Shown one piece after another: positions 45,072 to 50,747 of a stretch of 64,000 nucleotides of DNA. Under the pieces are notes generated by a model. It was not told the origin of the DNA, searched no databases, and saw nothing but the letters and a program-made list of their open reading frames with translations. Location: the NCBI RefSeq assembly GCF_021605415.1, contig NZ_WKEQ01000017.1:1-64000 (forward strand), in the 5' to 3' direction. Within the stretch, counting starts at the first letter, position 1. Each line of letters opens with the position of its first letter. The stretch comes from Pseudomonas syringae (lineage in GTDB: Bacteria > Pseudomonadota > Gammaproteobacteria > Pseudomonadales > Pseudomonadaceae). The position numbers were made by a program, and so were the translations under genes.

Positions 45072-45147
45072 GTCCCCTTCGTCTAGTGGCCTAGGACACC
45101 GCCCTTTCACGGCGGTAACAGGGGTTCGAGTCCCCTAGGGGACGCCA
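45072..45147 (+). tRNA. tRNA-Glu (TTC), copy 1
   Basis: The 76-nt cloverleaf starts GTCCCCTTCGTC, has anticodon TTC in CCTTTCACG, a T loop GGTTCGAGTCC, and an encoded CCA end (45145-45147). It is identical to copy 2. Confidence 0.97.
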
Positions 45148-45151
45148 ATAT

Positions 45152-45227
<76 letters not shown>

Positions 45228-45331
45228 ATTTTAAACAGCACTGCTTTCGGGCGGGGCTGAGTGAAACCAGAAACAAGTCTTCGGGCGCGGTTCTGGACAC
45301 CGAAACACACACCATGTGTTCCGGGTAGCGT

Positions 45332-45407
45332 GTCCCCTTCGTCTAGTGGCCTAGGACACCGCCCTTTCACGGCGGTAACAGGGGTTCGAGTCCCCTAGGG
45401 GACGCCA
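45332..45407 (+). tRNA. tRNA-Glu (TTC), copy 2
   Basis: Exact repeat of the tRNA-Glu at 45072, with the same TAGCGT leader bases; part of a tandem duplication of the Glu-Gly pair. Confidence 0.97.
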
Positions 45408-45410
45408 TTT

Positions 45411-45486
<76 letters not shown>

Positions 45487-47335: not shown

Positions 47336-47485
47336 TGCGGAAGGCATTCCTTTGCAGGCGGTGAGTGGGAAGTGTCTGATGGAGCAGACAGAAACATTTT
47401 CAAACTAACACCATGGGACAGCGATCCGGGAGCCCCGCATGTGAGATCTGTCGCACAGAAACGCAAAAGCGGCGCACAAACGAAA

Positions 47486-47516
47486 AAGGCCTTCTCGTTC
47501 ATTCGGGCAGGCCTTT
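47486..47516 (-). terminator. Terminator of the alaX-oxygenase-lysE operon
   Basis: The stem AAAGGCC / GGCCTTT closes a larger hairpin, with a T5 tail on the minus strand, 16 bp past the LysE gene. Confidence 0.8.
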
Positions 47517-47532
47517 CGTTTGGGCGATGGTT

Positions 47533-48171
47533 TTACATCGACAACATCAAGCGACCTGCGAACAGGATCAGAATCACCCCCATGCTGCGTTCGAACCAGT
47601 GGCCCATGCGCATGAACAGCGCGCGCACTTTACTGCTGGAGAAAAACAGGGCGACGATCACAAACCACAGTGCGTTCACCGCGCACATCCACAAACCATA
47701 CAGCGCCTGAATTTTCAGCGGCGTGGTGGCGCTGACAATGGTGGTGAAAATCGCGAGGAAGAACAGCGTCGCCTTAGGGTTGGTAGCGTTGGTGAAAAAA
47801 CCGGTGCTGAAGGCCTTGAACAACGACTGCTCGACCGCGACGTCGTCCGGGTTCTTTTCACCTTCCAGCGCGGACTTGGGTTTGCTGCGAATCAGGCTGA
47901 CACCCAGATACAAAATGTAGGCGCCGCCGACGACCTTGGCCACGGTCAGCAACCACGGCGTGGTATGCATCAATGCACCGACACCGAGCAAGGTGTACAA
48001 AACGTGCACGGAAATCCCCGTACCGATGCCCAGCGCTGTGCAGATTCCCACCAAACGTCCAAAGCGCACGCTCTGGCGAATGGTCACGGCGAAGTCCGGG
48101 CCGGGAGCGACCACGGCCAGAAAATGGATGGTGGCCAATGCCAGAAACTCGCCCAGGTAATTCGAAAACAT
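47533..48171 (-). CDS. LysE-family amino-acid exporter
   Basis: The 212-aa inner-membrane protein has six hydrophobic spans and the family entry HFLAVVAPGPDFAVTIRQS with the APGPD motif, plus GIGTGISVHVLYTLLGVG. LysE/RhtB proteins export amino acids or derivatives such as homoserine, threonine or lysine. It begins 1 bp after the oxygenase stop, so the two are coupled. The cargo is unknown; the neighbours suggest a modified amino acid. Confidence 0.9.
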   Translation of the reverse strand: MFSNYLGEFLALATIHFLAVVAPGPDFAVTIRQSVRFGRLVGICTALGIGTGISVHVLYTLLGVGALMHTTPWLLTVAKVVGGAYILYLGVSLIRSKPKSALEGEKNPDDVAVEQSLFKAFSTGFFTNATNPKATLFFLAIFTTIVSATTPLKIQALYGLWMCAVNALWFVIVALFFSSSKVRALFMRMGHWFERSMGVILILFAGRLMLSM

Positions 48172-48172
48172 C

Positions 48173-48943
48173 TCAGCTCCAGAAAGTCAGGGGTGAAGCG
48201 TTGCCGCGATAGCCGACAAAGAAGGAAAGACTCAACCGTGGATCTGCCACGCCCGGTGTCACCGAGTGCATGCGGCGCGAATTGAACATGATGAAATCCC
48301 CCGGATCCGGACGAACCTCCAAGGCTGGAGGGCCGAGTAAGGTCGGGTCAATGCCATAGCTGTCGCCGCGCATTTCATCGAACTGATCCGGTGAAATGTC
48401 GTCGTTCCACATTTGCAACGCGCCGCCCTCGGTCGGCATGTTCAGGTACACGTTGCAGGCGAATTGCGCCTCCAGGCTGCGCGCCTGAAAACTGTCCGGG
48501 GCGTCCTTGGCGAAAATGTCGTGGTGGGCGAGGAAGCACACGTCGGGTTTCACCACGCGCGAAAGCCCGACATACATTTTGCGTCCGTACAGATTCTCTA
48601 GATGGGCGCCGGCCGGCCAGGACTCGTCGAGCATGCAGCGCAAGGTATCGACCGGTGATGAATAAGGCGCACAACGGTTACGCAATTCAGCGATGTTGCG
48701 AGTGGCGCGCTCGAAGTAATCCTCGATCAGCAGTGGCTGGTTTTCCGCCTCGTAAAACGCCATGCCGATGCGACCGATACTCGGTGCATTGATATAGCCT
48801 TCAAAGCCCGGCGCGAGGATCTTGTCGCCCAACTGGATCGCTTGCGTCGGGGGCAAGAAGCCTTTGACGCGAATGGCGAGGATTTCATCGTTGGCGAGTT
48901 TTTTTATGCACGTCTCATCGAGACGCTCGACATCCAGCATCAT
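48173..48943 (-). CDS. 2-oxoglutarate/Fe(II)-dependent oxygenase, probable amino-acid hydroxylase
   Basis: The 256-aa protein has a jelly-roll iron triad: His140-x-Asp142 (CFLAHHDIF) and distal His226 (RRMHSVTPG). Arg236 (PRLSLSFFVGYRG), ten residues later, should bind 2-oxoglutarate. General shape and the GGALQMWND strand recall the BesD group that acts on free amino acids. The carboxylate of Asp142 is intact, so hydroxylation rather than halogenation is expected. The gene sits between an AlaX-like gene and a LysE exporter in one operon. The substrate is unknown. Confidence 0.8.
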   Translation of the reverse strand: MMLDVERLDETCIKKLANDEILAIRVKGFLPPTQAIQLGDKILAPGFEGYINAPSIGRIGMAFYEAENQPLLIEDYFERATRNIAELRNRCAPYSSPVDTLRCMLDESWPAGAHLENLYGRKMYVGLSRVVKPDVCFLAHHDIFAKDAPDSFQARSLEAQFACNVYLNMPTEGGALQMWNDDISPDQFDEMRGDSYGIDPTLLGPPALEVRPDPGDFIMFNSRRMHSVTPGVADPRLSLSFFVGYRGNASPLTFWS

Positions 48944-49032
48944 GGTGTTAGATCCATCTATCGATTAGTCAACGGAGTCGACGAGTCCGGCTCCCTGGCA
49001 TTGGACGATGCGCGAGGCACCGGCCGAAATCT

Positions 49033-49659
49033 TCAATCCACGTTGTAGTGGACGGATAGCGTGCCTTTCTTCTGCGAAAGGGATGCGATCGTGACGCTGC
49101 CCAGATCCTTGAGACTGCGTACATGAGTGCCGCCGCAACCATAGGCCGGCAACTCTCCAAAACCGACTTCCCGCGAGCCTTCGCGATGGGAAATCAGGCG
49201 TGGCAGATCGTGCTCGATCCATTGTCCGATACCGTACTGCACGGTTTGCGCATCAATTTCCTGGGCGGCATCCCCCGGTTTGAACTGCACCCGGCCTTCG
49301 TCTGGCCAGTGGTGTGCCTTGATCGGCGTCCAGCCCATGGCTTGCACGAAATGGCCGATCAAGTGCCCTGCCGAATGCATGCGGGTATTGAAACGGCGAC
49401 GTGCTTCGTCAACACGGATCTGGGTCATGCCCAGCGGCACCGGTTTATCGACGTAGTGAATAATTCGTTCCGGCTCTTGCACTACGCGCTGCACTTGGCT
49501 GTCGCCAATCCACCCGGTGTCGCACGGCTGGCCGCCTCCTTGGGGATGAAACAACGTAGCGCGCAAAACGATGGCGAATTCGTTTTCGAAGGGCGTGCAG
49601 TCGAGGACTTCCACATCGGCCTTGAGGTCATCGCTATGGAAAAACAGGCGAAGTGTCAT
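49033..49659 (-). CDS. Alanyl-tRNA editing protein, AlaX-like
   Basis: The 208-aa product starts MTLRLFFHSDDLKADVEV (ATG 49659); the upstream frame belongs to the divergent promoter region. It has the AlaRS-type editing domain with zinc ligands in NTRMHSAGHLIGH (HxxxH) and YGCGGTHVRSL (CxxxH), and the GGGQPCDTG loop. AlaX proteins hydrolyse wrongly charged aminoacyl-tRNA, classically Ser-tRNA-Ala. It is first gene of the operon with the oxygenase (89 bp downstream) and lysE, divergent from the LysR gene by 89 bp. Confidence 0.87.
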   Translation of the reverse strand: MTLRLFFHSDDLKADVEVLDCTPFENEFAIVLRATLFHPQGGGQPCDTGWIGDSQVQRVVQEPERIIHYVDKPVPLGMTQIRVDEARRRFNTRMHSAGHLIGHFVQAMGWTPIKAHHWPDEGRVQFKPGDAAQEIDAQTVQYGIGQWIEHDLPRLISHREGSREVGFGELPAYGCGGTHVRSLKDLGSVTIASLSQKKGTLSVHYNVD

Positions 49660-49748
49660 ATTCCAGGCCTTATTAAAGTTTCTATTTTTATTATATGAAT
49701 CGTGCAATAACGTGATAATCCGTTCGAACATCAAAGGACTGTTGCGCT
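49660..49748. promoter_or_regulatory. Divergent promoter region between alaX and lysR
   Basis: The 89-bp gap is unusually AT-rich (TTATTAAAGTTTC, TATTTTTATTATATGAA) for this genome. It contains the partial dyad ATCGTGCAATAACGTGAT, a possible LysR operator. The layout is that of a LysR gene controlling its divergent neighbour. Confidence 0.55.
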
Positions 49749-50747
49749 GTGAGCATAAATCTACCGCTGCCACTGCTGGGTGAAATGGCGATTTTCGTCA
49801 AGGTTGTCGAGACCGGCAGTTTCTCTGAAGCGGCACGCCAACTCGGTTCGTCGCCTTCCGCGGTCAGCCGCAGCATTTCCCGGCTGGAGAAAGCCCTCGC
49901 CACCCGTCTGTTGCAACGCACGACGCGTAAATTGCGCTTGAGTGATGGCGGCGAAGAGGTATTCAAGCGTTGTCAGGAAATGGTCAGCGCCGCTAAGTCA
50001 GTCATGGAGATCAGCGGTCAGTTCACGCACGAAGCGGAGGGCTTGGTGCGGGTCAGCGTACCCAAGGCTGTCGGGCGTTTTGTAGTGCATCCGCACATGA
50101 CGGAGTTTTTGCGTCGCTACCCCAAAGTCGATGTGGAGTTGCTGCTGGAAGACCGGCAAGTGGATCTGATCGATGACCATGTCGACCTGGCAATCCGCAT
50201 CACCGACCGTCCGCCGGCCGGATTGATCGGACGTCAGTTGCTCACTATCGACCATTTGCTCTGCGCCACGCCGGAGTATCTGGCGGAGCACGGTACGCCA
50301 TCCCATCCTCACGACTTGCTCAACCACAGTTGTATTTATCTGGGAGAAACCCCGAGCGATGCGCGCTGGAAATTCAAGAAGGGCAGCAAAGCCGTAACGG
50401 TCAGCGTGCGCGGACGCTATGCCGCCAACCACACCGGCGTGCGCCTTGGTGCAGTGTTGCAGCACATCGGCATCGGCAGCTTGCCGTACTTCACGGCGCG
50501 GTATGCCTTGGAACAGGGGAGGGTGGTGCAGGTGTTGCCGGACTGGACGTTTCTGGCGTCGTATCACGGCGGATTGTGGCTGCTGCATTCGCCGACGCGG
50601 TATCTGCCGCCGAAGTTGCGGGTGTTTATTGATTATCTGGTGGAGTGCCTGGAGCAGGAGCCAACGTTGGGTAAGCCGGGGAAATCAAATGATTCGAGTA
50701 CGGTAGCGATGGAATATGAGCTGCCGGAGAGTGAGGGGTTGCTTTAA
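49749..50747 (+). CDS. LysR-family transcriptional regulator
   Basis: The 332-aa protein starts at a GTG (49749). An N-terminal winged helix (about 8-66, GSFSEAARQLGSSPSAVSRSISRLE) is followed by a substrate-binding domain (RVSVPKAVGRFVVHPHM, VDLAIRITDRPPAGLIGRQL). This is the AaeR/DsdC-like class of LysR proteins. It is divergent from the alaX-oxygenase-lysE operon, which it probably controls with a substrate-related co-inducer. Its C-terminal 25 residues are low-complexity. Confidence 0.9.
   Translation: MSINLPLPLLGEMAIFVKVVETGSFSEAARQLGSSPSAVSRSISRLEKALATRLLQRTTRKLRLSDGGEEVFKRCQEMVSAAKSVMEISGQFTHEAEGLVRVSVPKAVGRFVVHPHMTEFLRRYPKVDVELLLEDRQVDLIDDHVDLAIRITDRPPAGLIGRQLLTIDHLLCATPEYLAEHGTPSHPHDLLNHSCIYLGETPSDARWKFKKGSKAVTVSVRGRYAANHTGVRLGAVLQHIGIGSLPYFTARYALEQGRVVQVLPDWTFLASYHGGLWLLHSPTRYLPPKLRVFIDYLVECLEQEPTLGKPGKSNDSSTVAMEYELPESEGLL

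Follow-up and report, generated by a model that had tools for sequence, protein, structure and literature searches.

A lysR-alaX-oxygenase-lysE locus of Pseudomonas syringae as a candidate unit for producing, tolerating, and exporting a non-protein amino acid

Organization of the locus

Our analysis of a 64,000-nt stretch of Pseudomonas syringae DNA (contig NZ_WKEQ01000017.1, positions 1 to 64,000; hereafter, the window) concerns a four-gene locus comprising three co-directional genes and a divergent lysR gene. All four genes are open frames and lie where a preliminary description of the window had placed them. In particular, the first operon gene, alaX (49033-49659, minus strand), encodes a 208-aa stand-alone AlaX-M-like aminoacyl-tRNA deacylase; the second (48173-48943, minus strand) encodes a 256-aa 2-oxoglutarate/Fe(II) oxygenase (PF13640), the proposed "make" enzyme; and the third, lysE (47533-48171, minus strand), encodes a 212-aa RhtC/RhtB-like exporter of the LysE superfamily (PF01810), the proposed export step. 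The divergent gene, lysR (49749-50747, plus strand), has a GTG start and encodes a 332-aa LysR-type regulator (PF00126 and PF03466), the proposed sensor and activator.

The 89-bp divergent gap reported earlier is borne out (lysR-alaX intergenic region, 49660-49748), is 87-92 bp long in 182 of 185 loci, and contains the predicted alaX promoter, TTATCA-17-TATAAT (49718-49690, minus strand), which faces alaX. This promoter is located inside a conserved block, GGATTATCAC-N16-TATAAT (49721-49690, minus strand), that is also recognizable in Halomonas and in genomes carrying alaX without the oxygenase gene. In the window, alaX and the oxygenase gene are separated by 89 bp, and the oxygenase gene and lysE by 1 bp, as previously noted (coordinates 48173 and 48171); the 1-bp gap recurs in 66 of the 80 relatives kept from the scan described below. 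At 47478-47530 on the minus strand, lysE is followed by a hairpin with a U tract that resembles a rho-independent terminator (−16.5 kcal/mol, z −2.7), in agreement with the terminator already reported for the operon.

Conservation and nested distribution

Among 84,980 species genomes scanned, 122 relatives of the oxygenase were found, of which the best 80 were kept. LysR-AlaX-oxygenase-LysE, with order and orientation preserved, is present at 80 of these 80 loci, a degree of conservation far beyond chance. Together with the independent contexts below, this rules out a strain-local coincidence; rather than being confined to close strains, an outcome that the preliminary description had named as refuting its reading, the order extends across several bacterial families and onto a plasmid. 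Scan loci of the P. fluorescens, P. koreensis, and P. chlororaphis groups occupy a single chromosomal site beside fadE. Full sets in settings where the flanking genes of the fadE site are absent are found in the P. oryzihabitans group (~50/62/73% identity for AlaX/oxygenase/LysE), in Halomonas/Vreelandella (44/65/66%), and in a Comamonadaceae metagenome-assembled genome (40/64/63%). Two more sampled genomes have the alaX-oxygenase-lysE triad with 63-69% oxygenase identity, one with LysR (L061) and one with no LysR in the 3.8 kb of sequence covered (L239). The triad is also carried, with this LysR not nearby, by a 6.4-kb mobilizable plasmid of Acinetobacter johnsonii and by a megaplasmid of Photobacterium sp. 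GJ3; two near-copies with frame breaks in the latter strain (L032 and L033, on the megaplasmid and a 16-kb record) may represent an assembly duplication. The oxygenase is rare in whole-genome sampling, being present in 4 of 369 genomes in the class, window genome counted.

Within Pseudomonas, the distribution of the oxygenase is nested inside that of AlaX. In a sample of 299 genomes, a close oxygenase is present in 63 and AlaX in 142, with the oxygenase lacking AlaX in 0 of 63 and AlaX lacking the oxygenase in 79 of 142 (a Fisher value for this co-occurrence ignores relatedness and is not taken as a probability). Reading of 78 oxygenase-free AlaX loci revealed three arrangements: LysR-AlaX only (62 loci), LysR-AlaX-LysE (11 loci), and AlaX located elsewhere (5 loci). 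The 73 loci of the first two arrangements are all at the same fadE site, with lysR co-inherited with alaX. In a LysR tree built by FastTree, in which outgroup branches are long and many forks weak, the full module is present in the outgroups, and oxygenase-free loci branch from within the full ones, giving at least 6 changes. The simplest story is that the oxygenase was lost repeatedly while the sensor and the deacylase were kept; regain of the oxygenase by transfer is also conceivable. Outside Pseudomonas, Klebsiella and Chimaeribacter have LysR-AlaX pairs (LysR 57-65%), and another Acinetobacter plasmid carries LysR-AlaX-LysE without the oxygenase. Of these elements, the lysR-alaX pair is widespread and the oxygenase variable; a strict co-dependence of the four genes is ruled out, since lysR-alaX often stands alone.

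The encoded proteins

AlaX of the window retains all four zinc ligands (H95, H99, C175, and H179) and the GGGQ motif. In the copies compared, T35 and GGGQ are conserved, GGGQ being invariant, and the H95/H99 and C175/H179 ligands are intact in all oxygenase-linked copies and in 76 of 79 Pseudomonas copies without the oxygenase. The structure model (predicted local distance difference test, pLDDT, 90) has as its best PDB matches AlaX-M 2e1b/9iuw and 3kew (TM 0.83-0.86), including AlaX-M of Pyrococcus. The protein fails the curated AlaXM equivalog NF040865 (66 bits vs. a cut-off of 300) and is a divergent AlaX-M-like subfamily. No second free-standing protein of the window genome matches AlaX, the remaining matches being proteins of the size of alanyl-tRNA synthetase (AlaRS) and threonyl-tRNA synthetase. 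In one oxygenase-positive genome (G034; L234, 5524-6150), alaX has a frameshift near residue 40 in a G-rich run, reflecting either an assembly error or a broken protector.

The oxygenase belongs to the 2-oxoglutarate/Fe(II) superfamily PF13640, with the HxD...H iron ligands and the arginine for 2-oxoglutarate. The residues singled out in the preliminary description, H140-x-D142, H226, and R236, are present and, together with R129 and R58, identical in 113 of 113 module copies compared. Because the iron-binding aspartate is retained, unlike in halogenases, the enzyme should hydroxylate. The nearest solved relatives by profile and fold are WelO5 and Wi-WelO15 (PDB 5iqs, 5j4r, 6gem, and 8aut; PF22814), which are carrier-independent halogenases with ~15% identity to the oxygenase, lack the iron-binding aspartate, and act on hapalindole-type alkaloids. 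Specifically, the family profile finds WelO5 structures (E 6e-15), PF22814 is matched by 18 of 19 aligned module members (best 1.3e-7; the window protein itself has no match at E<=0.01), and the structure model, of low confidence (pLDDT 63), has WelO5 as its best fold match, followed by the N-substituted amino-acid dioxygenase 3w20. The oxygenase is closer to the WelO5 clade than to BesD, and the earlier label "BesD-type" is not supported: the iron site is HxD in all 113 copies and not the halogenase HxG, no BesD chain is found at E<=0.1 in the profile search, and none is among the 50 best fold matches of the model.

Paralogues of the oxygenase at 34% identity in Pseudomonas do not represent the same system; neither AlaX nor LysE accompanies them, and their neighbours, where read, are cyclodipeptide synthase, nonribosomal peptide synthetase (NRPS), or MFS/EamA exporter genes. 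A paralogue of 34-36% identity precedes a cyclodipeptide synthase gene (PF16715, read in L036) at L036, L042, L043, L054, and similar loci in Pseudomonas, with an MFS exporter in L036 and L043; these loci are apparently a small uncharacterised diketopiperazine cluster. Another paralogue (L044 and L046) accompanies an A-T-C-reductase NRPS, a short-chain dehydrogenase, and an EamA exporter (read in L044). A 30% relative (L063, in genome G302) has as neighbours a LysR gene, an aromatic amino-acid lyase, and an AMP-binding enzyme, which suggests amino-acid chemistry.

The exporter matches the LysE translocator family (PF01810, E 1.4e-35), as expected from its earlier description as a LysE exporter, with the qualification that, judged by model scores, it appears closer to RhtC/RhtB-type threonine/homoserine efflux proteins than to LysE proper: its best score is to TIGR00949 homoserine/threonine efflux (152 bits; cut-off 184), followed by RhtC (97 bits), while LysE proper gives 28 bits. 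The regulator is nearest to YafC/TtdR and reaches no family cut-off. At another Pseudomonas site (L172 and L173), an AlaX of 42-43% identity adjoins a different LysE (30%), with an AraC-like frame upstream in L172, identified by eye.

Analogous sets and candidate functions

Pairing of AlaX with a maker and an exporter extends to sets built from other families. In Undibacterium, Caballeronia, two other genomes, and the actinomycete Embleya, a distant oxygenase (~27-35%) comes immediately before AlaX; in Embleya, an MFS exporter is next in line. On Salmonella enterica plasmid pSA20021456.1 (L243, 2173-7252), a single co-directional run encodes an AMP-binding/adenylation domain, a peptidyl carrier protein, a TIGR01762 chlorinating enzyme, AlaX, an EamA transporter, and a thioesterase. 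The adenylation signature, hand-read against the published code, is DFWNIGMVH, which we take to be a threonine signature; free 4-chlorothreonine is therefore a reasonable guess, and the cassette is possibly a pathway for this compound. Like the window operon, the cassette joins a maker, AlaX, and an exporter; it differs in using SyrB2-type carrier-bound chlorination, and its maker and exporter families are unrelated to those of the operon. Unlike makers and exporters around the same kind of deacylase would be expected if the logic, and not just the ancestry, is one of making, protecting, and exporting.

Published systems supply precedents for the concept. In Streptomyces cattleya and Streptomyces sp. 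MA37, deacylation and export by FthB/FthC protect the producer of 4-fluorothreonine (PMC7408626, PMC7162832); as proposed here, a stand-alone aminoacyl-tRNA deacylase and a dedicated exporter guard the producer of a free threonine-like antimetabolite, but 4-fluorothreonine is made by a fluorinase and a transaldolase with no 2-oxoglutarate oxygenase, and FthB is described as ProXp-ST1-related (PMC11295145), not as AlaX. Identity of an AlaX on the S. cattleya megaplasmid with FthB is not established, the record being without annotation there. In the Hil operon of Pantoea/Pseudomonas, HilA (PF13640) hydroxylates free L-isoleucine within a LysR/exporter operon, and this operon and the IDO operon of Bacillus thuringiensis combine LysR, a PF13640 free-amino-acid oxygenase, and, in some, an exporter (RhtA), with a proposed antimicrobial or signal role (PMC3684760). 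They differ in having no tRNA deacylase and in having an additional PF10014 dioxygenase, a dehydrogenase, and a ligase. Membership of the window operon in this group is ruled out: the HilR-HilP-HilA-HilB-HilC core is missing, with just LysR and a PF13640 protein shared, the NCBIfam HilA model gives 22 bits against a cut-off of 500, and no PF10014, solute-binding, or dehydrogenase gene is present within the operon. CtdA, a canavanyl-tRNA deacylase encoded beside canavanine degradation genes in Pseudomonas canavaninivorans (PMC10018355), is likewise a stand-alone editing protein encoded with genes for one non-protein amino acid, but is of B3/4 type and not AlaX, and belongs to a catabolic setting with no oxygenase. 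The concept is thus already known, although the preliminary description knew of no such set; none of these systems couples AlaX to a free-standing oxygenase, and no description of the alaX-oxygenase-lysE linkage was found in the open-licence literature.

We judge it slightly better than an even bet that the four genes together serve to make, survive, and release a non-protein amino acid. In this scheme, the oxygenase would hydroxylate, or otherwise oxidise, a free small amino acid; the oxidised analogue would still be accepted by an aminoacyl-tRNA synthetase; the AlaX-M-like protein would hydrolyse the analogue off wrongly charged tRNA and thereby keep it out of proteins; the RhtC-like LysE protein would export it; and LysR would sense it and switch on the alaX promoter. 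The product may be toxic to neighbours or a signal to them, and relatives that lost the oxygenase would keep the sensor and the deacylase as immunity. The product would most likely resemble threonine, as both the type of exporter and the analogous Salmonella cassette suggest. In outline this is the make, protect, and export scheme of the preliminary description, strengthened by the conserved order, the nested distribution, and the analogous sets, and shorn of its BesD label and its claimed lack of precedent.

Several observations weigh against this scheme. AlaX-M enzymes usually clear serine or glycine from tRNA-Ala, so that no new product is required; one oxygenase-bearing genome, G034, has the frameshifted alaX, possibly an assembly error; and the structure model of the oxygenase has the low confidence given above. 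The substrate may be something other than a free amino acid, given that WelO5, the nearest solved enzyme, acts on an alkaloid and that the 34% relatives adjoin cyclodipeptide synthase or NRPS genes. Finally, defence against an outside compound would also account for a LysR-controlled deacylase and exporter without the oxygenase, as at the 11 Pseudomonas loci and on the Acinetobacter plasmid.

The last point leads to a rival that we regard as rather unlikely, namely a resistance operon directed against a toxic amino acid from outside, for example of plant or microbial origin, which LysR would sense, AlaX would strip from mischarged tRNA, LysE would pump out, and the oxygenase would inactivate. 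Such an operon would account for LysR-AlaX and LysR-AlaX-LysE without the oxygenase and for carriage on a small mobilizable plasmid, which is typical of resistance cargo; CtdA, which pairs stand-alone editing with canavanine degradation in Pseudomonas (PMC10018355), offers a precedent. A degrading enzyme, however, should sometimes lack the deacylase, yet both are present in 63 of 63 genomes; moreover, relatives of the oxygenase sit with biosynthetic and not catabolic genes, and the AlaX cassette of the Salmonella plasmid is plainly biosynthetic. A maker never found without its protector, and a protector often found without the maker, fit immunity better than detoxification. It is improbable that AlaX performs ordinary stress-induced quality control (Ser/Gly-tRNA-Ala), with the oxygenase and LysE serving a separate metabolic function under a regulator shared by chance: although the AlaX-M fold, zinc ligands, and GGGQ motif are retained, and AlaX accompanies LysR alone at 62 Pseudomonas loci and in Klebsiella and Chimaeribacter, one AlaRS-sized protein of the window genome itself matches the editing domain, and the oxygenase and AlaX are again adjacent in unrelated settings, an actinomycete among them.

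Two further alternatives appear highly improbable. The oxygenase could act on aminoacyl-tRNA, with AlaX releasing the modified amino acid, in a tRNA-templated biosynthesis and not a make-and-protect system. The link of oxygenase relatives to cyclodipeptide synthase, which likewise uses aminoacyl-tRNA, and the recurrence of oxygenase plus AlaX, with no exporter, as the minimal unit are consistent with this, but AlaX without the oxygenase is common, and no 2-oxoglutarate oxygenase of this clade is known to act on aminoacyl-tRNA. Equally, the distant exporterless pairs could be conflict modules resembling toxin-antitoxin systems, in which the oxygenase would poison translation via a mischarged analogue and AlaX would be the antidote. 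The surroundings of L062, L064, and L035 (described below) point in this direction, but these are three loci only, mobile islands hold many unrelated cargo genes, and the window operon has an exporter and a stable chromosomal site.

If making, protecting, and exporting is the correct account, stand-alone AlaX would have a concrete job in bacteria where alanyl-tRNA synthetase already edits, namely self-protection or immunity against a specific non-protein amino acid, and the oxygenase would be a new one-step catalyst of amino-acid C-H oxidation. AlaX beside an oxygenase or halogenase would likewise be a genome-mining flag for small amino-acid antibiotics missed by standard cluster tools, and the producer/immune pattern in Pseudomonas would be testable in rhizosphere competition. 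A broader proposal, which we advance tentatively and hold somewhat below even, is an undescribed, widespread antimetabolite economy, in which a one-enzyme pathway would yield an exported threonine-like amino acid, a dedicated AlaX would be the hallmark, and many non-producers would keep LysR and AlaX as immunity. Stand-alone bacterial AlaX genes would then mark makers and resisters of such amino acids.

Three exporterless oxygenase-AlaX pairs lie beside restriction or conflict genes and may be island cargo: L062 beside a GmrSD type IV restriction enzyme and an integrase, L064 beside trypsin and AAA genes, and L035 beside a PLD-domain gene. For the window operon itself there is no evidence of a defence function, its single PADLOC match being to a generic 2-oxoglutarate oxygenase model. 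Downstream of the operon, just past an M20 peptidase gene, the window carries two tandem copies of a tRNA-Glu/tRNA-Gly pair (45072-45486).

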